Below are positions 26,210 to 35,650 of a stretch of 35,650 nucleotides of DNA, in pieces. Every line of letters starts with the position of its first letter. The first letter of the stretch is position 1. The translations under genes and the position numbers were made by a program. The stretch spans positions 1 to 35,650 of the forward strand of contig MWCQ01000006.1 in assembly GCA_002070105.1 (NCBI GenBank). Reading direction: 5' to 3'. Source of the DNA: Firmicutes bacterium ADurb.Bin193. GTDB lineage: Bacteria > Bacillota > Clostridia > Monoglobales > Firm-18. The notes below the pieces were generated by a model. The model saw nothing but the letters and a program-made list of their open reading frames with translations. It did no database searches and was not told where the DNA came from.

Positions 26210-27235
26210 TCAATCTGCACTCTTGTTTTTCTTCGGTCCTTTTTCTTTAGGTAGAAGGTTCGACTTTTGTCCCGCAAAATTTTTATTCTCATTCTCTTTA
26301 TTTGATTTATTTACATCTTTAGCTTTTTCTTCGGTCTTTTCTTCTTTTATTTCTTTAACTTTTTCGGTATTTTGCCCGTTTTCGGGGGGACTGCTTTGTT
26401 CCTGTGTCAAAGCGTTTTTTTGCTTGCTTTTATCAGCGCTGTTCTCTTTTGAACTTTCGCCTTTGTTATCCAGTTTGGTGTCGTCTTTATTTTTTTGTAC
26501 ACCGTTGCTGTTTGACGGTTGGTCTTTTTTCGGAGAATTGTCCGGCTTGTTTTTTTCTTTTATTTCTCTTTTTATTTGTCCGTTTGAAATCCCCTCAAGC
26601 TTATCGGCGTTTTCTTCTATACTTCCGCCGTTTGTTTCGGAATACTCTCTTAATGCCTTAAGTCTGCCCACAGAGATCCCAAGCTCCTTTGCTTGTAGGG
26701 CATCTTCGTTGTTTGCCTGTTCGACATAAACCTCTATTTGTTGCTTTGCAAACGGCTTAACACTTTTTTCAACAAGGCTTGTTATTTTTTCGTCCTCGGA
26801 AGCAACATTAATTTCAACGCTGTTTTCTCCCGGAACAAGAAAGCCCATAGCCTCGGCGTTTTCGATAATCGAGCTGATACACTTTTCGATATTTTGGGAT
26901 TTGATATTCCCTGTCGCAAGAAGCGCCTTTGCATCATCATTAAGCGGCCTTATTTTGATTACCATGTCAAATCTGTTAATATCAAGCTGAAAGCTGGGAT
27001 TTATATCGATGCTCAGATAGCTGACGGGAGTACTGTAAGCGCTTATACCCGAAAAGCCGAGCAGCAGACATAAAACGAAAGATGCAACCATTGCGCCGTA
27101 TTTTATAAATGTCGTCTTCGCACAGCTTACCGTTTGACCAATCGAATAATTTTTATTGCGGAGTTTAACAAATTCTCCGTCCCGGGTTATCATCACAGCG
27201 TTTCTGCCTTTAATATCAGCAATGATTCCTTTCAT
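26210..27235 (-). CDS. rsgI: RsgI-type membrane anti-sigma factor
   Basis: RsgI binds and inhibits SigI until an outside signal arrives. The 341-residue protein starts with the RsgI_N domain (MKGIIADIKGRNAVMITRDG, about 1-50) and has one membrane helix (about 52-72). An extracytoplasmic domain opens SYLSIDINPSFQLDINRFD, as in other RsgI proteins. The last 130 residues are low-complexity and rich in Lys, Glu, Asn and Ser. No carbohydrate-binding module or hydrolase domain follows, unlike many cellulosomal RsgI proteins. GGAGG precedes the ATG, and the gene lies 3 bases after sigI. Confidence 0.93.
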   Translation of the reverse strand: MKGIIADIKGRNAVMITRDGEFVKLRNKNYSIGQTVSCAKTTFIKYGAMVASFVLCLLLGFSGISAYSTPVSYLSIDINPSFQLDINRFDMVIKIRPLNDDAKALLATGNIKSQNIEKCISSIIENAEAMGFLVPGENSVEINVASEDEKITSLVEKSVKPFAKQQIEVYVEQANNEDALQAKELGISVGRLKALREYSETNGGSIEENADKLEGISNGQIKREIKEKNKPDNSPKKDQPSNSNGVQKNKDDTKLDNKGESSKENSADKSKQKNALTQEQSSPPENGQNTEKVKEIKEEKTEEKAKDVNKSNKENENKNFAGQKSNLLPKEKGPKKNKSAD

Positions 27236-27238
27236 ATT

Positions 27239-27925
27239 CTACGCCTCCCTTACGGCTCTGAAATACTCTGCGATTATCGAATAATCGCCGCTTAAAACCA
27301 CAACAGCAACAATAATATATTTTCTGTGCCGCTCTAAAAGCTTTTTATTTACACCAAGATTTCTGATGATTTCCGATACGGGTACAACCCCCTTTTCTTT
27401 TATATCGGTCAGCGCCTGCTCGTTTTTCAAAATATATCGAATAACGCTGTAACAGGCTTCTTTTGTTTTTTTGGTCTTTGGCGTATCCTTCGGCAAATCC
27501 ATATAGGATATGCCGAATTTTGCAATCTCCCGCTTAATTGCTTCGAGTTCAAAGGCGGTATCGGATATGGGTTCTTTTACAACTCCTATATCAAAATCCG
27601 TTTCGTTCCCGTCGTCATCTGTTGTCGAAAGACTGCTAAAAGGCACCGTGTTTTTGTCCCTGTACAGTTTTCTCAAATGGTCAATCAGCCTGCTTTTTAT
27701 CATCATCGAAGCAAAATCCAAAAAGTGTCCTCTTTCTTCTTCATATTTTGTAATTGCTTCGTTAAAGGCAATAAGGGCGATTGACGCCTCATCATCCGAG
27801 GGTGAAATGTATCGACCGACCGTCTTTTTTGCGCACGATAAAACAAAGCCCGTGTACTCTTCAATCAGAGTATCCCGCTGTGCATTATCATTCTTCGCGC
27901 AAAAAACCCGCTCCTCCAGCCTCAT
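27239..27925 (-). CDS. sigI: RNA polymerase sigma factor SigI
   Basis: This is an alternative sigma factor of about 228 residues. Region 2 reads DEASIALIAFNEAITKYEEERGHFLDFASMMIKSRLIDHLRK, as in SigI proteins. The C-terminal part, PVSEIIRNLGVNKKLLERHRKYIIA, is the SigI-type DNA-binding region and not a sigma-70 region 4. The start is ATG 27925 or 27931; AGGTG favours 27925. SigI responds to heat or polysaccharide depending on species. Its gene is coupled to rsgI and has a sigma-A-type promoter, so initial expression need not be autogenous. Confidence 0.94.
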   Translation of the reverse strand: MRLEERVFCAKNDNAQRDTLIEEYTGFVLSCAKKTVGRYISPSDDEASIALIAFNEAITKYEEERGHFLDFASMMIKSRLIDHLRKLYRDKNTVPFSSLSTTDDDGNETDFDIGVVKEPISDTAFELEAIKREIAKFGISYMDLPKDTPKTKKTKEACYSVIRYILKNEQALTDIKEKGVVPVSEIIRNLGVNKKLLERHRKYIIVAVVVLSGDYSIIAEYFRAVREA

Positions 27926-27959
27926 ATCCATCACCTGTTTTCCACAGTTCTTAATGTCA

Positions 27960-27988
27960 ATTATACCAAACCGGATACCACCGGTCAA
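27960..27988 (-). promoter_or_regulatory. Sigma-A promoter of sigI-rsgI
   Basis: On the minus strand, TTGACC (27983-27988) and TATAAT (27960-27965) are separated by exactly 17 bases. The spacer region contains the inverted repeat ACCGG/CCGGT, which may be an operator. Confidence 0.75.
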
Positions 27989-28031
27989 CAAAGCCCTTAC
28001 CGCCGTACCGTTTATAATTGCGGCGTTTAAA

Positions 28032-28085: not shown

Positions 28086-28973
28086 TTACTCAATTATTAT
28101 AGTCTGGCTTTCTTCGTCCCACTCCACTCCCATATTAAACGCCTCGAATATAAATCTGACGGGGACAAGCGTACGGTTCTTTACAATGGCAGGGGGAGTG
28201 TCAAGCTCGTATTTCTTTCCGTTCACCGTTGCAATTTTGTTGTCAATCTGCATTACAATTATATTATCTTCTTTTGTGATTGTTACCGTCTTTGTTTCTT
28301 CATCCCATGCGACATCTGCACCGAAGGTTTCGACAATCGCCCGAATCGGGGCAAGCGTTCTGCCGTTTTCAATGATTGGCTTTACACCGTCATATTTGTC
28401 AAAATCTACCGCAATGCCTCTTACAAAAACACCAATCGAATAATCCTTAAGCTCCTTTTTGACTTCGGCAATTTGCTTTAATATTTCTTTTTTGTCTTCG
28501 ACATCCGCGTCCTTAAAAAGCGATTTTAAGTCCTTTATATACTCTTTTGCTTCTGTTCTGACTTCCTTACGCTCCTCTATTTTTGCCTTAAGCAGTTCCT
28601 TGTTTACTTTGCTTTTACCGTTGTTAGACTTGTCACCTTGGTCAGGCGATTCGGAAGGCTCAGGCGATTCGGAAGGCTCGGGTGTTTCGGTAGGCTCGGG
28701 TGATTCCGTTGGCTCGGGTGATTCCGTTGGCTCGGGTGATTCCGTAGGTTCGGGCGTTTCCGTAGGCTCCGGTGTTTCCGTAGGTTCGGGCGTCTCCGTA
28801 GGCTCCGGTGATTCCGTAGGTTCCGGTGTTTCCGTTGGCTCCGGTGTTTCAACACTTGTGATAGTATTATTCTTATGTATCGGCGTATTCTTTTCGGTAT
28901 CTCTCTTTGCGAAAACACTCATTGTAGATATGCAAAATGTCATAATGATAAGGATGGTAACAGCTCTTTTCAT
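28086..28973 (-). CDS. Secreted protein with Pro/Glu repeats and a copper-amine-oxidase-N-like (stalk) domain
   Basis: This is a 295-residue exported protein with a signal peptide (VTILIIMTFCISTMSVFA). Twelve copies of a six-residue unit (TETPEP or TESPEP, two ending units SESPEP and SESPDQ; residues 41-112) follow. A charged helical segment comes next, then a C-terminal copper_amine_oxidase_N-type domain (PF07833-like) with NGRTLAPIRAIVETFGADVAWDEE and NRTLVPVRFIFEAFNMGVEW. Such domains are common on clostridial surface proteins and do not imply oxidase activity. The repeat probably acts as a spacer through the wall. It lies just upstream of sigI in the same direction, ends in a terminator, and has a candidate SigI-type promoter. 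Confidence 0.9.
   Translation of the reverse strand: MKRAVTILIIMTFCISTMSVFAKRDTEKNTPIHKNNTITSVETPEPTETPEPTESPEPTETPEPTETPEPTETPEPTESPEPTESPEPTESPEPTETPEPSESPEPSESPDQGDKSNNGKSKVNKELLKAKIEERKEVRTEAKEYIKDLKSLFKDADVEDKKEILKQIAEVKKELKDYSIGVFVRGIAVDFDKYDGVKPIIENGRTLAPIRAIVETFGADVAWDEETKTVTITKEDNIIVMQIDNKIATVNGKKYELDTPPAIVKNRTLVPVRFIFEAFNMGVEWDEESQTIIIE
28638..28853 (-). repeat. Twelve tandem 18-base repeats encoding the Pro/Glu spacer
   Basis: An 18-base unit encodes TE(T/S)PEP. The units differ mainly at third codon positions and at the ACC/TCC-type Thr/Ser choice, so the array is old enough to have diverged but can still slip or recombine. Confidence 0.92.
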
Positions 28974-29135: not shown

Positions 29136-29339
29136 TCACTCCTCCGAGAATGAGAAAAGCTCATCAATCGTTGTGCCCAGCGCCCTTGCAATATCATACG
29201 CAAGTTTAAGCGAGGGATTGTACCTTCCGTTTTCAAGATGGACGATTGTTTCGCGCCTTACTCCCACAATTTTCGCAAGAGAATCCTGTGTAATGTCTCT
29301 TTTCGCCCTGTACTCTTTGATTTTTGTTGTCATTTTCAT
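29136..29339 (-). CDS. Small XRE-family transcriptional regulator
   Basis: This is a 67-residue protein consisting almost only of a Cro/CI-type helix-turn-helix: [44 protein letters not shown], ending [10 protein letters not shown]. This short type is common beside small membrane proteins in Firmicutes. Its start overlaps the stop of the upstream gene (AAATGA), so translation is coupled. ATG 29333 is an alternative start. A palindrome over the operon's -10 is its likely operator. Confidence 0.93.
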
Positions 29340-29677
29340 TTATATATCACGCTACCCTTTTTTTCATAAATTGCAAGGGATATGGAAAATATTAAAAGCT
29401 GTATGGCAAAGTTTGCGGCAAAGCCGAATGCAAACATCTCCGGAATAGAGGTAAACGCCCCCGCAACAATAATTACGGGATAGATAAACAGCCCTGCGAA
29501 AAATGCGTTTTTCGCGGCTTTGTTAACATTCTGAACAAACATCTCGTCAGGGATAATTCTAAAAAAACTGATGAAGCCGAAAAACCCGTAAAAGCCATAA
29601 AATCCGGGATTGTCTGTAACCAATCCCAAAAGTCCCAAAAAACCCAAGAGTCATAAAAAACCAAGTTTGTTTTTCAC
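29336..29677 (-). pseudogene. Small DUF3796-like membrane protein gene interrupted by an in-frame TGA
   Basis: GTG at 29677 has GGAGG 8 bases upstream and reads VKNKLGFL, then TGA at 29651-29653. The same frame then continues LLGFLGLLGLVTDNPGFYGF to the stop at 29336, giving a normal two-to-three-helix membrane protein. The repeated LGFLG pattern predicts Gly at the stop, so one base change (GGA to TGA) would explain it. Reinitiation at TTG 29647 is possible but lacks a ribosome site. The family (DUF3796-type, usually paired with an XRE regulator) is from memory. Whether the protein is made is uncertain. Confidence 0.75.
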
Positions 29678-29715: not shown

Positions 29716-29751
29716 TGTTATAATTATATAACATTGCAGGCTTGATGTCAA
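29716..29751 (-). promoter_or_regulatory. Perfect-consensus sigma-A promoter with operator palindrome for the membrane protein/XRE operon
   Basis: On the minus strand, TTGACA (29746-29751) and TATAAT (29723-29728) are separated by 17 bases, matching consensus in all twelve positions. A perfect seven-base inverted repeat, TGTTATA-TAAT-TATAACA (29716-29733), covers the -10. This is a natural site for autorepression by the small XRE protein. Confidence 0.75.
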
Positions 29752-29850: not shown

Positions 29851-32055
29851 TTAGTTCGTAACAACCAGAACCCTTATTCTTCCTCCGCTCTGCATTGTTT
29901 TGTCGCAGTACGCCGTAACCGTATAGTTATTTGACATAACCTCGCTAAGAGGAATTACCTCGTAATCAAGACTTGCATCGGTTGTTTTTTTGTAAACGAC
30001 GACCTTGTCGCTTAAGGGAAATTTTGAATTCACCGTATACACAAAATTATTGTCAATGTTTTTTACGCTGTCGGGAAGCGCCGTGAGCGGTTTAATTCCC
30101 TTAAGCTCCTGCCCCTCAAAGTCAAAAAGGGCGGGCTGGCCGCCATATACCTGATAAATTACCGAAACGGTATTGATATGCCTTTTTTCTCCCCCGACCA
30201 AAAGGTCATACTCACCCATAAGCATCATTCCGCCCGACTGGTTAACCGCCTTGGTAACCAGACCGAAACTAAACATATCGTTTGTAACATTATTAAGAAT
30301 CAAAACGGAAATTTTGCCCTTTTCATTGTTCTCGGCATATAAGATTTTATCCCGACTAATTTCAACGCCATCAAGTCTTTGCGGAAAAATTCTTACATAT
30401 TTCCCGATTCGGTATTGTTCATAGCGCGCGGTATCCAGAATTTTAATGTCGGAGGCAAGCATGGCTTTGCCAAGCGTCTTATTCCCCCAGTCAAACCTTC
30501 CAGCTAATGTGTTCGACGGGTTTTTTACGGTTAGCACCGCCTTTCCGCCCGAAAACGAAAAGTAAACGAGTTTTCCTTTGTATGTGCCGTAATCCTTGTC
30601 CGTGCCGTATTCGATTTCACTTCCGTCGGGCATAGCAAGCGTTGCGATGTATCTGTAAACCTTTTCGCCTTTTTCGTTGGTATTTTCTTTAAGTCCCGTG
30701 TTTATAAGATAAGCCACCTGATTGTCTGTTGCAACCGTGGTCAGCACATCCGCAATTTTATCGTCCTTGCCGAATAAAACAGTAACGGGATCCCCGAATT
30801 TTATCCCGCCGTCCGACGAAAGCTTGTTAAACGCCGCAATAGAGCCTATTTCATAGGATTCGCCCGACAGTATAATTTTTGTGGGATTGTCCTTGTTCGG
30901 GAGGGCGTTTTCATAAATCCCCGTCTTCTTTTTGGTATAAGCCAGCACGGTATTGCTCTGCTTAATGTAATAACAGATGTCATAATCCCGTATTGCAGAA
31001 GCATCGGAGGGTATTCCGTCCCGAATTATCTTTGTATTTGCGTCTATTCCGAATGCACTCATAAAGCTTGAGCCATAGTTTGTCACGGGCCCCTCGATTA
31101 CATCCTTTTCAATGCTTATATACTCCGTTTTGCTGTTTATGTCTTTATACAGGGTAATTCTGTCGCCTGTTTTTATATCGCTTTTAACAGCCTGATAACT
31201 GCTTTGTACTTCACCCGAAAACACCTTTACATCGTCCTCTATTTCAATTTGCATATCATTGTCAAAGGTTGCAATCCCTCCCGGAAGAACCGCTTTGACC
31301 ACATAGCTCTGTAAAATCTGCTCCTTCGGCAAAAACGCCGCGATATTGTCATATTCGTCAACAATTAAGTCGCCGCATTTTAAAATATCGCTCTCGCTAA
31401 ATCTGTCACCCTTACCGAAGATCCCTGCCGAGGTTAAAACCTTATCACGGGATGTTGTTTTGTCAGTCATTATAACGGCGTTTTGAAAATAGCGGTAATT
31501 CAGCGTTTCGATATAGTATCTGCTGTCGTTTTTCGGCTTAATAAGCAATGAGTTTTGTACCATAATCGCGGCATCGCCTCTTAAAAGGCTTGCGCCCGCA
31601 GTCGCAGTAACATTGTTTAATATCCCCGCATTTTTTGCGGCATTTATTTGTGCCGTAGCCCAGTCGCCGCCCGGACTTGTTTCATACTTTAACAAATTCA
31701 GTAAAACCTTGCATGCTTCCTCGTAGGTTACCTCCTTTTCAGGCTTGAAGGTTCCGTCGGGATAACCTGACAAAAGCCCGATTTCCGTCGCGTATGCGAT
31801 ATATGAGGCCGCCCAGTGAGTATGCGGGACATCGCCGTAGGGCGATACGCTTTTGTAGGGCGTAAACTCTCTGTCTACCATTGTAACAACAATTTTCGCA
31901 AACTGGGAACGCGTAAGGCTGTCGCCCTCGCCGAAGTTTCCGTCATCATAGCCCGTCATAATACCAAGCGATTTTACCAGATCATAATCTTTTGCAAAAA
32001 CGCCCGCAGGCATAATCAGAAGGCATATTATTACCAAGCTAATTAGTTTTTTCAT
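29851..32055 (-). CDS. SLH-domain cell-surface protein
   Basis: This is a 734-residue exported protein with a signal peptide (MKKLISLVIICLLIMPAGVFA). Three N-terminal SLH repeats follow: residues about 22-62 (LGIMTGYDDGNFGEGDSLTR), 65-125 (DVPHTHWAASYIAYA, LLSGYPDGTFKPEKEVT) and 126-173 (a divergent copy). They bind pyruvylated wall polymer. The remaining 550 residues are beta-rich and unassigned, ending YTVTAYCDKTMQSGGRIRVLVV. They resemble in style the 669-residue protein at 11978-13987. It starts 2 bases after the HlyD stop, so it is co-expressed with the exporter and may be its cargo or its wall-anchored outer part. Confidence 0.92.
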   Translation of the reverse strand: MKKLISLVIICLLIMPAGVFAKDYDLVKSLGIMTGYDDGNFGEGDSLTRSQFAKIVVTMVDREFTPYKSVSPYGDVPHTHWAASYIAYATEIGLLSGYPDGTFKPEKEVTYEEACKVLLNLLKYETSPGGDWATAQINAAKNAGILNNVTATAGASLLRGDAAIMVQNSLLIKPKNDSRYYIETLNYRYFQNAVIMTDKTTSRDKVLTSAGIFGKGDRFSESDILKCGDLIVDEYDNIAAFLPKEQILQSYVVKAVLPGGIATFDNDMQIEIEDDVKVFSGEVQSSYQAVKSDIKTGDRITLYKDINSKTEYISIEKDVIEGPVTNYGSSFMSAFGIDANTKIIRDGIPSDASAIRDYDICYYIKQSNTVLAYTKKKTGIYENALPNKDNPTKIILSGESYEIGSIAAFNKLSSDGGIKFGDPVTVLFGKDDKIADVLTTVATDNQVAYLINTGLKENTNEKGEKVYRYIATLAMPDGSEIEYGTDKDYGTYKGKLVYFSFSGGKAVLTVKNPSNTLAGRFDWGNKTLGKAMLASDIKILDTARYEQYRIGKYVRIFPQRLDGVEISRDKILYAENNEKGKISVLILNNVTNDMFSFGLVTKAVNQSGGMMLMGEYDLLVGGEKRHINTVSVIYQVYGGQPALFDFEGQELKGIKPLTALPDSVKNIDNNFVYTVNSKFPLSDKVVVYKKTTDASLDYEVIPLSEVMSNNYTVTAYCDKTMQSGGRIRVLVVTN

Positions 32056-32057
32056 AG

Positions 32058-33527
32058 TTAATTACCCCTTTTGGACGATACCATGTCGCCGATTTTAAGA
32101 CCGCTTACAACCTCGACATAATCGTTATCCCTTATACCCGTTTGGACCTTAACCTCACGGAGTTTGCCGTCCTCATACAGCATTACGCTGTCACCCGTCA
32201 GGGCGTCCTTCGGTATGAGCATTACACTATCCTTTGTCATAACTACAATCCCGACAGACAGATTCATTCCCACCTTAAGCTCCGGAGATTGCTCTATCTT
32301 TACCCTTACGGGATAATATGTAACTCCGTTCTTTGCCACACCCACATTGTCAATCCTTACAACCTCGCCCGTAAATACTCTGTCGGGAAGCGCCTCTGCG
32401 GTTATCTCCGCCGTTTGACCCTTTACAACCTTTGCAATAAAGATTTCGTCAACCTCGACATCTACATAAAGATTATCCAAATCCGAAACAGTCATCAAAA
32501 CGGTTTGAGGCGTAACATTGTCGCCTTTTTTGATGTTTTTCGATACAACTGTTCCGTCTGCGGGTGATTTTATTTTATAATCCTCAAGTCCGGCAATTAA
32601 ATTTTCCAGATTGTTTCGCGCATCTCTCAACGCGATTTCGCTGCTCTTTTTTGCGTTTGTAACCTGGTCGTTCTTAAGGATTAATACTGTTTTTCCTTCA
32701 TTTATGTAATCGCCTTCCCGGATATTAAGCTCGGTAATCTGACCGCTTCCGCCCGAAACTATTGTTTTTTCGACTGAATTTATAAATTCTCCGGCACTGT
32801 TACAGCCTATGCCGTTCACCTCGGCATACGCTTTTTCGCCTTTTGTGACGGCGCCGGGGTTGTTGACCGTTATTTCTATGTAGGTAACCATCCTGTACCC
32901 GCTGAGGCTTTCGGAATAGTCATAAATCCTCGATACGACGCCCTGCATTGTCAGTGAATCCGAAGCAAGAGTTATGCTTGCGGTATCGCCCTTTTTTATA
33001 CGCCCAACATCGGTAGTGTTAAAGGGGATTTTCAAAATAAGATAGCTGTTGTCGACAACATCGGCTATTTTCGTTCCGGCAGCAACAAAATCTCCCTTTG
33101 AAACATACAGCCTTTGAATTTTACCGCTGTACCCCGAAACTGTTGTTAAATCGTCGTATGCGGCAAGGCTTTGCCTGTAGTTTTCCTCACACCTGTCGAG
33201 GTTTATCCGTGCCGACCTTATCTGATTTTCTATTTCGCGGGAATCGATTGTGCAAAGCACATCACCCTTACGGACGGTATCACCTTCCTCAAACCCTGAT
33301 GAGGTAACCATACCTGCCTGTAACGAGGTAATATCGTATGTCACACCGGCTATTACAACACCCGTGCCCTTAACCTTATCCACAATGCTTCCGCTTACTA
33401 CCTCTGCCAGATTGCTTTTGATTTTCGCGGTGTTTTTAACTGCGCCGTTGATGCTTGAAGCAACAGTTACAATAATGACTATTGCCGCCGCCGCTATTGC
33501 TATAATGATTTTTTTATGTTTGAACAT
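32058..33527 (-). CDS. HlyD/MacA-type efflux adaptor (membrane fusion protein)
   Basis: This is a 489-residue protein with one N-terminal membrane helix (KKIIIAIAAAAIVIIVTVASS). The outside part has lipoyl-like halves (GMVTSSGFEEGDTVRKGDVLCTIDSREI, and later SPADGTVVSKNIKKGDNVTPQTVLMTV) around a helical hairpin, then a beta-barrel domain (VGVAKNGVTYYPVRVKIEQSPELKVGMNLSVGIV). This is the family of adaptors partnered with MacB-type ABC transporters. In a Gram-positive cell it has no outer-membrane channel and may guide substrate across the wall. AGGAGAGG precedes the ATG, and it lies 11 bases after the permease. Confidence 0.93.
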   Translation of the reverse strand: MFKHKKIIIAIAAAAIVIIVTVASSINGAVKNTAKIKSNLAEVVSGSIVDKVKGTGVVIAGVTYDITSLQAGMVTSSGFEEGDTVRKGDVLCTIDSREIENQIRSARINLDRCEENYRQSLAAYDDLTTVSGYSGKIQRLYVSKGDFVAAGTKIADVVDNSYLILKIPFNTTDVGRIKKGDTASITLASDSLTMQGVVSRIYDYSESLSGYRMVTYIEITVNNPGAVTKGEKAYAEVNGIGCNSAGEFINSVEKTIVSGGSGQITELNIREGDYINEGKTVLILKNDQVTNAKKSSEIALRDARNNLENLIAGLEDYKIKSPADGTVVSKNIKKGDNVTPQTVLMTVSDLDNLYVDVEVDEIFIAKVVKGQTAEITAEALPDRVFTGEVVRIDNVGVAKNGVTYYPVRVKIEQSPELKVGMNLSVGIVVMTKDSVMLIPKDALTGDSVMLYEDGKLREVKVQTGIRDNDYVEVVSGLKIGDMVSSKRGN

Positions 33528-33538
33528 ACGCGCCTCTC

Positions 33539-35650
33539 CTATTCTACACTTTTTAGTGCGCCAATCATATCAATTTCCTTAAACTTTTTGCCGAGCGATA
33601 AATTGACAAGCAGCGAAAACCCGAAGGTTATGCACGACGCAATGAAAAACGATAAACAGCTTATGTATGAATCAACCTCAAATCCCGCCGTCTCACTGTT
33701 TGCGACAAGATATGCCTGAAACCGGATGCCGAGAGGTATTCCCAAAACAATACCCAAAATCGTGAAAATTGTATTCTCGCGAAGTACAAGCGTTTTTATC
33801 TCATTATCGTAAAACCCAAGCACCATAAGGGTTGCAAGCTCTCTTATCCTCTCAAAATAGTTCATAATCCCAAGGTTGTATAAAACCACACAGCCCAAAA
33901 CGCCGCCGAACAAAATCAGAATAGTCATAACAACCTTCATTGTTTTAAGCTGTTCTTCTATTGATTCCACAATCTCGCTTTTTTGCTTGGCGGACAGGAT
34001 AAACTCATATTCTTCAATCTTATTTTTTACAAAGCCCGAATCGGAAGAACGAAGGTATATTGTTGAGGGATTGTACTCCTGCCCCATACTCCGCCATACC
34101 GTGCGTCCGACATATATTCCGTTGATGTTTTTAAGTATTTGCGCCACCTTAAAGGTAACTGTCCTGTTTTTACCCGTAATGTTAGCCTCAAGTATATCTC
34201 CTTCACGAAGATTCAGCTTTTTTGCCAGTACCGACGAGACAACCGCGCCGTCCCGAGGCAGTTTCATTGAGGTGTCGGAATTTATGTCAAGCAACATTAA
34301 GGATATTTCGTCCTCAACCACCGCTATAACCGAGCCTTCTTTTTTCCCCTTAAAAGAAAATGTTGAGGGGACATCCATCTGATACTCGCATTTGGTAATG
34401 CCCTGCGTGCTTTGTATCCTTCTGTACTGGGCTTCGGTGGTGTCTGCCTTAAGAAAAACCTGAAGGTCGTAACGGTGAATCTTTTCAAACAGCATATCGA
34501 AAAACTTATAGTTTGAATCATTCATTCCGAATGCCATTGTAACAACGGTCATACAGCCCGCTACACCCGCTACGCACATTACAAGGCGCATTTTGTTCCT
34601 GAATATATTTCGTATAATTGTTTTTTCGGTAAAGGTAAGCCTCTTCCATATAACCGACATTCTCTCGATTATATTTTTGTTGCCCGTTTTGGGTATCTTG
34701 GGTCTGATACATTCGGCGGGCATATCCCTAAGCCCTTTAATACATATATAAACCGATGTCCCCGTGCAAAATATGTTTGTTATTATAAGTACCTGTATGA
34801 TTGCGGCCGCGCTGAATTGCGCCGTAAAATCCGGCATGCTGAAGGTTGCTTTATAAATTGAAATAAGTAAATTTGTAATAATCCCCGAAGGCAGAACGCC
34901 CAACAAAACGCCCAGTATTACTACCACCTGAGCATAGGATATGTAGTAAATGAATATCGAGAAATCGCTGTAACCCAATGCTTTTAATATGCCTATCTGC
35001 ATTCTTGCTTCCTCTATAATCCTCGACATTGTTGTAAACATAATGAGCGCGGATATAAGGAAAAACAATATCGGCAGGCTTGTGGTCGTTGTTTTCATTT
35101 CCTTAATGCCGCCGCGAAGCATATATGCCCTTGTGTTATCCTTAAACGACAGAATAGAAGCGGCTTTTTCACCCAGTGCCTCGTCAACATCCCTTTTGAA
35201 TTTTTCCTGTGCTTCATCGGTATTATTATAAAGTTTAACGCAAATCTGATTAAAGATGTTTTTGCCCATCAGATCCTGAAGGCTTTCCGCCTTCATATAC
35301 GCAAAGCCAAGCTTATAGCTGTTGGGTATCATGTCAATGCCGCTGACATTATAAATAATCTCAGGGCTTCTTATATAGCCGCAAACCGTAAGAGTGATTT
35401 TTTGCGGGGTGTCTTTAATTTTAAGCTCGTATGTATCACCGATACTTAAATTATGCGCTTTGGCAAATTCGTCAAACAGTGCAAATTCTCGCTCCGTTTC
35501 GGGAAGCCTCCCCGCCACGATATAGGGTTTGTTTATTATATAATCCCCCGAAACGGCATAAAGATTAACCGTTACATCCTTATCCCGCACAGGCTGTGCC
35601 TCAACAACAACCCTTGCCTGAGCCGTCGCAACGCCCTCAAGGCGTGAAAC
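33539..35650 (-). CDS. FtsX/MacB-type ABC transporter permease, 5' end outside the window
   Basis: The frame is open to the window edge, so the 703 visible residues lack the N-terminus (a GTG at 35590 is not needed as a start). There is an extracytoplasmic domain (about 1-200), then four membrane helices in the first FtsX block (ILFFLISALIMFTTMSRII onward), and a second extracytoplasmic domain (about 370-570). A final FtsX block contains MTILILFGGVLGCVVLYNLG and TILGIVLGIPLGIRF. This is the two-block FtsX layout of LolC/YknZ-like permeases. The missing helix and the ATPase are expected beyond base 35650. Downstream are HlyD and the SLH protein. Confidence 0.93.
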   Translation of the reverse strand, partial: VSRLEGVATAQARVVVEAQPVRDKDVTVNLYAVSGDYIINKPYIVAGRLPETEREFALFDEFAKAHNLSIGDTYELKIKDTPQKITLTVCGYIRSPEIIYNVSGIDMIPNSYKLGFAYMKAESLQDLMGKNIFNQICVKLYNNTDEAQEKFKRDVDEALGEKAASILSFKDNTRAYMLRGGIKEMKTTTTSLPILFFLISALIMFTTMSRIIEEARMQIGILKALGYSDFSIFIYYISYAQVVVILGVLLGVLPSGIITNLLISIYKATFSMPDFTAQFSAAAIIQVLIITNIFCTGTSVYICIKGLRDMPAECIRPKIPKTGNKNIIERMSVIWKRLTFTEKTIIRNIFRNKMRLVMCVAGVAGCMTVVTMAFGMNDSNYKFFDMLFEKIHRYDLQVFLKADTTEAQYRRIQSTQGITKCEYQMDVPSTFSFKGKKEGSVIAVVEDEISLMLLDINSDTSMKLPRDGAVVSSVLAKKLNLREGDILEANITGKNRTVTFKVAQILKNINGIYVGRTVWRSMGQEYNPSTIYLRSSDSGFVKNKIEEYEFILSAKQKSEIVESIEEQLKTMKVVMTILILFGGVLGCVVLYNLGIMNYFERIRELATLMVLGFYDNEIKTLVLRENTIFTILGIVLGIPLGIRFQAYLVANSETAGFEVDSYISCLSFFIASCITFGFSLLVNLSLGKKFKEIDMIGALKSVE

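Follow-up and report, generated by a model that had tools for sequence, protein, structure and literature searches.

MacAB-like pumps of Gram-positive bacteria have been described as an adaptor and a transporter that possibly reach the peptidoglycan, and they protect against peptides, as the parts of two accounts that deal with them have it (PMC5985334, PMC5768738). According to the relevant sections of a 2018 review of the MacB family, MacB, FtsX and LolC make up one transporter class, and the same sections raise the role of adaptors in Gram-positives that lack an outer membrane (PMC5985334). Here, we analysed a stretch of 35,650 nucleotides of Firmicutes bacterium ADurb.Bin193 (positions 1-35,650 of contig MWCQ01000006.1; the whole stretch is called the window, and C6 denotes the numbering of the same contig), at one end of which genes for an ABC transporter and an adaptor are followed by a gene for a surface-layer homology (SLH) protein. 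We consider it probable that this operon specifies an ABC pump of single-membrane Clostridia that has four parts and is docked to the wall; the SLH protein would serve, on the wall side, as the docking partner of a double-headed adaptor.

On the minus strand the gene order is ABC ATPase, permease, HlyD/MacA-type adaptor and SLH protein, with gaps of 1, 11 and 2 bases. Open reading frames (ORFs) and Pfam (two FtsX rows in the permease, HlyD_D23/HlyD_3 in the adaptor and a single SLH row in the SLH protein) confirmed the permease-adaptor-SLH operon with 11- and 2-base gaps proposed in the initial annotation, which had counted three genes; the unit has four, the ATPase lying one base upstream of the permease, outside the window. 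The permease had been called MacB-like, and it is indeed of the FtsX type, but the term is inexact: a MacB-type half permease has about 390 aa and one FtsX unit, whereas the window encodes a long ABC3 permease of 774 aa with two FtsX stretches, for which the best NCBIfam rows are weak and far under the cut-off. The ATPase falls in the LolD/MacB class (NCBIfam).

The gene neighbourhood was surveyed with the C-terminal part of the SLH protein (residues 180-734) as the query. Members of this C-terminal family occur in 38 of 60 relatives; in the class they were detected in 80 of 293 genomes, covering 48 of 181 genera, and in the phylum in 18 of 398. A named scan yielded 80 loci, including ones in Monoglobus, Acetivibrio, Flavonifractor and Bacilliculturomica. 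Genes on the same strand up to 5.5 kb before the SLH protein were counted wherever 5.5 kb or more of upstream sequence was available, in four sets of loci that share species: A (80 loci), B (41 loci), C (40 loci, chosen non-randomly, the first 20 regions being mainly the weakest matches and the next 20 mid-ranking) and D (9 of the 18 genomes of the phylum scan; two were already covered, six were left out and one locus with a long masked run was set aside). An adaptor, an ATPase and MacB lie upstream of the SLH protein at 56 of 58 loci in set A, at 31 of 32 in set B, where the exception is the window operon with its other permease, at 27 of 36 among the distant and middling loci of set C, and at all nine in set D. 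Exceptions include L125/L222, with the adaptor only, and L152 and L214, where no ATPase was found within 5.5 kb upstream; at L157 and L214 the adaptor and MacB precede the SLH protein with no ATPase gene between them. For the reverse count, double-headed adaptor genes scoring at least 305 bits were collected from the 293 class genomes, and the SLH protein was sought on the same strand within 9 kb. It was near 70 of the 92 adaptors, rising to 28 of 30 at 600 bits or more and 11 of 11 at 700 bits or more; among the 22 adaptors lacking it, G017:C51, G148:C10 and G245:C93 are contig breaks or fragments. Since the C-terminal family recurs in relatives and class genomes at these frequencies, mostly behind the same kind of transporter, the link between the SLH gene and the transporter is far beyond chance. 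The initial annotation had named an SLH gene not conserved beside the transporter as the finding that would speak against it; the association proved to be kept across families and outside the class, and many single-membrane bacteria of the gut and of soil carry such a gene set.

The genome itself holds a second operon of this kind. The SLH protein has 35 matches there, almost all of them limited to the SLH repeats, and besides the protein itself only one matches residues 14-732 (E 1.4e-63). The sister operon (L010) encodes an adaptor of 704 aa, an ATPase of 227 aa, a permease of 392 aa that is a genuine MacB (NCBIfam) and, last, an SLH protein of 764 aa.

The predicted fold marks the SLH protein as a wall anchor of the canonical SLH type. 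In a model built on a 70-row alignment of the window protein and the found loci (mean predicted local distance difference test score (pLDDT) 89, predicted template modelling score (pTM) 0.62), the SLH trimer matches SpaA-SLH (6cwh_C; Z 19.9, root-mean-square deviation (rmsd) 2.4 A over 152 residues, VIA-align) and 3pyw (Z 17.8), its three repeats having the SpaA/Sap fold. The SpaA-SLH structure was solved with pyruvylated wall-polymer sugars bound, and a CsaB pyruvyl transferase is present in the genome (TIGR03609, 280.7 bits at a cut-off of 213.1). Beyond the trimer the model consists almost entirely of beta structure. The fold matches for the C-terminal part, all below Z 8 (single-strand DNA-binding proteins, LEF-3, HIN domains, the Mpa interdomain and DUF2500), can be read, weakly, only as small barrels like the oligonucleotide/oligosaccharide-binding (OB) fold. 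Searches of the C-terminal part in Pfam, NCBIfam and PADLOC gave SLH-type rows or none, and a profile search against the sequences of solved structures gave two hits, which were attributed to chance (E 0.086 and 0.4). A profile comparison of eight sub-segments showed weak internal similarity (best 64%).

Scanned for modules, 167 SLH proteins, redundancy kept, show the order SLH, then 0, 1, 2, 3 or 5 stalks, a core and usually a tail. One stalk with both tail parts is the arrangement of 103 proteins, 25 have no stalk and 22 have two, while three (L209, L189 and L190) carry alternating stalk-core repeats with two or three cores. The scan made no core call in L241 and L272 and no SLH call in L080. 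Many invariant residues of the C-terminal part lie within the core. The SLH proteins of L270, L271 and L272 reach 1055-1075 aa with five stalks, and those of L270 and L271 end with the core after the stalk; the operon of L270 (genome G488) runs HlyD-MacB-ATPase-SLH.

The adaptor is predicted to have a MacA fold with a second head at its tip. Its model (57 rows; mean pLDDT 89.2, pTM 0.64) superposes on MacA (5nik_D; 309 of 340 residues, Z 19.5, rmsd 4.1), on Spr0693 (219 of 231 residues at 2.5 A) and on AcrA (2f1m; 211 of 229 residues at 2.3 A), and because of these superpositions, read from residue ranges and secondary structure, we take the helices 97-125 and 287-317 to form one MacA hairpin. 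Between the hairpin helices, where TolC would dock, about 158 residues are inserted, which the MacA sequence match skips: in the sequence search, MacA is matched in its first part by residues 42-133 and in its second by stretches that start at 288-306 and end at 483-484. Of residues 124-285 of the model, about 70 match several BCCP/lipoyl carrier domains (rmsd 1.2-1.4 A), with a beta-barrel inside. The tip insert is found in 151 of 155 adaptors examined, redundancy kept. An adaptor simply lacking the hairpin was considered and rejected, as the superposition gives one hairpin with the tip head inserted into it. The notion that short helix spans are peculiar to SLH operons was rejected as well, since a span of 36 residues also prevails next to TolC-like proteins and other neighbours; in the SLH set, a few rows range from 13 to 134 and were taken as misaligned.

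The adaptor and the SLH protein form a lasting unit. In genome G230 (L125/L222) the two stand alone, flanked by mutL-miaA and hemW-tyrS. No MacB was found at E<=1e-20 in this genome (99% complete). A window-type permease was detected at E<=1e-25 in 127 of the 293 class genomes, and G230 is not one of them. Within the window, the pair is preceded by an ABC3 permease instead of MacB. A window-related permease in G124 precedes an adaptor with a long middle, helical by sequence, and no full tip head, whereas the window adaptor is close over its whole length to the double-headed adaptors (E 3e-91 to L081) and far from that of G124 (E 2e-9). Because the pair persists without MacB, stands behind another permease in the window and keeps an adaptor unlike that of G124, it appears to switch motors as a whole. 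The divergence of the parts, compared across 74 operons by partial rank correlations of distances, which are rough and non-independent measures, points the same way. The C-terminal part of the SLH protein correlated at 0.32 with the adaptor tip and at 0.19 with its base, MacB at 0.44 with the base and at 0.15 with the tip, and the combined tip/base contrast was positive in 400 of 400 resamplings. Only this double contrast is stable, the single one being marginal, so a strong claim of co-divergence was rejected.

Among the adaptor loci lacking an SLH neighbour, 20 of the 22 were inspected, plus two weaker adaptors. Short SLH proteins of 354-375 aa lie directly before the adaptor in G190, G282 and G251; the C-terminal part of those of G190 and G282 matches the core, and in that of G251 only the SLH part is above threshold. 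At L247-L250 (f24 genomes G200, G142, G097 and G248) the gene after MacB belongs to the TolC family, with PF02321 over the Pfam cut-off, and the slot after MacB in G216 is likewise assigned to that family, judged by position. No Omp85 was found in the six f24 genomes tested. As a separate observation, the OEP family matches over its cut-off in 88 of the 293 class genomes. At two loci without an SLH protein, MacB is followed by a PG_binding/YkuD L,D-transpeptidase (L251) or an M15 carboxypeptidase (L242), and at others the genes look unrelated. Not every such transporter therefore has a fourth partner.

We propose that the ATPase and the permease would act as the motor, and that the adaptor would assemble into a MacA-type tube, presumably a hexamer as in MacA and Spr0693. 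The hairpins would end in the head made of the second lipoyl domain and the beta-barrel, which would replace the free TolC-binding tip. The SLH protein would be exported by Sec, its trimer would bind the pyruvylated wall polymer, and its conserved beta core, raised on a stalk that varies in length, would be offered to the tip head of the adaptor. The tube might thereby be held under the wall or S-layer, with the substrate released on the far side.

Several observations weigh against this proposal. The divergent SLH homologues L189, L193, L197, L199, L200, L205 and L206 of set C have no adaptor and MacB upstream, and neither does L155; at L199 and L203, adaptor- and MacB-type genes lie downstream of the SLH homologue. 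The same tip head is present in adaptors whose operons lack the SLH protein, e.g. beside TolC-like proteins, and is therefore a feature of the adaptor family, not specific to an SLH partner. Distances inside one operon are correlated anyway, and the tip-versus-base contrast of the SLH protein alone is marginal, with 4% of resamplings at or below zero. The SLH trimer and the C-terminal part co-vary (0.55), and the trimer tracks the tip too, at 0.22 when the C-terminal part is controlled for; the signal thus extends over more than one part. The core correlates with the tip at only 0.04 given the rest of the C-terminal part, for which the value with the tip is 0.24; this speaks against the core as the contact, and the core as the sole contact was rejected on this ground.

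Among the alternatives, the wall-anchored beta modules could capture or sense the substrate of the pump (a peptide antibiotic, lipid or glycan) and pass it on, giving protection like that of YknWXYZ with no duct. The peptide defence ascribed to known Gram-positive pumps of this type in the passages cited above (PMC5985334, PMC5768738) and the weak resemblance of the modules to OB-like barrels (Z 5-8) fit this idea, which is compatible with docking; on its own it is unlikely, as it leaves the tip head, the variable stalk and the adaptor-SLH pairs without MacB unexplained. The initial annotation had also left room for the SLH protein being the exported cargo, released or moved to the wall by the transporter as LolCDE releases lipoproteins. 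It is a surface protein whose gene closes the operon, and the genes would likewise stay together if each transporter had a single dedicated substrate. However, an N-terminal Sec-type signal peptide is apparent by eye and there is no lipobox cysteine, so the SLH protein needs no MacB to cross the membrane; it is paired with the adaptor in G230, where no MacB was found, and many other SLH matches in the genome do without the C-terminal part. We regard the cargo role as quite improbable. The apparent Sec signal, the pairing without MacB, the different permease in the window and the replacement of the TolC-docking tip by a head lead us to favour docking over cargo.

Wall remodelling is more doubtful again: in a mechanotransmission like that of FtsEX, the SLH protein and the adaptor would organise growth of the wall or S-layer rather than serve export. 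MacB and FtsX share their class with LolC in the review sections already cited (PMC5985334). Wall enzymes also follow MacB in the two relatives named above (L251, L242), but Pfam and NCBIfam detected no enzyme domain in the SLH protein. FtsEX is not known to have a MacA-type tube, which counts against this explanation too. That the genes are mere co-regulated neighbours with no physical link, as the divergent SLH homologues standing alone might suggest, is very hard to reconcile with a gene order that is conserved between families and beyond the class, intergenic distances of a few bases, a second diverged operon in the same genome and the adaptor-SLH pair retained alone in G230. Docking of the SLH protein to the double-headed adaptor remains our preferred reading. 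More tentatively, monoderm Clostridia may have trans-wall pumps in which the SLH wall protein is the counterpart of TolC for the wall, and the adaptor and wall protein may be a module that fits different motors.

Table 1. Features of the operon and of its adaptor and SLH protein (window positions unless marked C6; residue numbers refer to the respective protein).
Feature	Position	Strand	Basis
SLH protein, 734 aa, final operon gene	29851..32055	-	ORF, SLH Pfam, family and neighbourhood survey
Tail modules of SLH protein, residues 442-734, OB-like beta in the model; missing in some homologues	29854..30732	-	model, fold search, scan
Conserved core of SLH protein, residues 319-441; sole C-terminal part of short versions	30733..31101	-	module scan, core matches
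Stalk module of SLH protein, residues 186-318	31102..31500	-	module scan; all-beta in model
SLH trimer, residues 19-182, wall anchor	31510..32001	-	VIA-align to 6cwh_C
HlyD/MacA-type adaptor, 489 aa	32058..33527	-	ORF, Pfam, model, superposition
Adaptor N-terminal helix, residues 4-26, likely membrane anchor	within 32058..33527	-	
Adaptor hairpin helix 2, residues 287-317	32577..32669	-	DSSP of model; MacA superposition
Adaptor tip head, residues 127-285: second lipoyl domain and inserted beta-barrel	32673..33149	-	BCCP/lipoyl matches, sequence search
Adaptor hairpin helix 1, residues 97-125	33153..33239	-	DSSP of model; MacA superposition
ABC3-type permease, two FtsX domains, truncated at window edge	33539..35650	-	ORF, Pfam
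Full permease gene, 774 aa	C6:33539-35863	-	contig beyond window
ABC ATPase, 237 aa, beyond window, 1 base upstream of permease	C6:35865-36578	-	contig beyond window

Immediately before the ATPase gene lies a promoter-like site matching at 11 of 12 positions, a kind of site that is no more frequent than in shuffled sequence. A perfect 12/12 sigma-70-like promoter site (29723-29751, minus strand) follows right after the SLH gene, ahead of a 103-aa ORF (29336-29647). Further along, 28086-28973 encodes a protein of 295 aa that combines a copper amine oxidase N-terminal domain with a long PTE/PSE-rich repeat, and 26210-27991 an RsgI-like anti-sigma factor (RsgI_N, RsgI_M) beside a sigma-70 region 2 protein, a pair of the SigI/RsgI type (Pfam).

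SLH surface-layer proteins such as SpaA and Sap have in common with the window protein the SLH trimer for pyruvylated wall polymer, whereas the latter continues into a stalk-core-tail family that has no model in Pfam or NCBIfam and is tied to one type of transporter. Among the Gram-positive MacAB-like pumps, YknWXYZ of Bacillus and Spr0693-0694-0695 of S. pneumoniae combine an adaptor, an ATPase and MacB (YknXYZ, Spr0693-0695), as do L010 and the operons of most relatives; the window operon has another permease. Spr0693 superposes on our adaptor with no counterpart of the tip head, and YknW is a membrane protein. A wall-anchored gene product is not mentioned for such pumps in the relevant parts of PMC5985334, PMC5768738, PMC8277102 and PMC4446572, and no description of an adaptor-transporter-SLH arrangement was found in the searched literature, outside of which lie preprints and most subscription journals. 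A wall partner with a near-constant core and 0-5 stalk repeats, together with an extra head on the adaptor, offers a concrete and testable answer to the question raised by the 2018 review, and the operon may represent a new class of trans-envelope machine in bacteria that are common in the gut.

The MacAB-TolC pump of E. coli (5nik) is alike in the adaptor fold with its hairpin, in the LolD/MacB class of the ATPase and, in the sister operon and the relatives, in MacB itself. It differs in having a free tip that docks to TolC, where the hairpin tip of our adaptor bears a lipoyl and barrel head, and in its permease, which in the window is of the long ABC3 type. TolC/OEP (PF02321) was not found in the genome at E<=0.001, in a search that was positive for 7 of 14 control genomes, and neither was Omp85; the fourth position is taken here by the wall-anchored SLH protein. 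TolC-family outer-membrane factors occupy the same slot after MacB in the f24 relatives, but they have a helical fold unrelated to the SLH protein, which is SLH-only in Pfam and, in the model, nearly all beta past residue 186.

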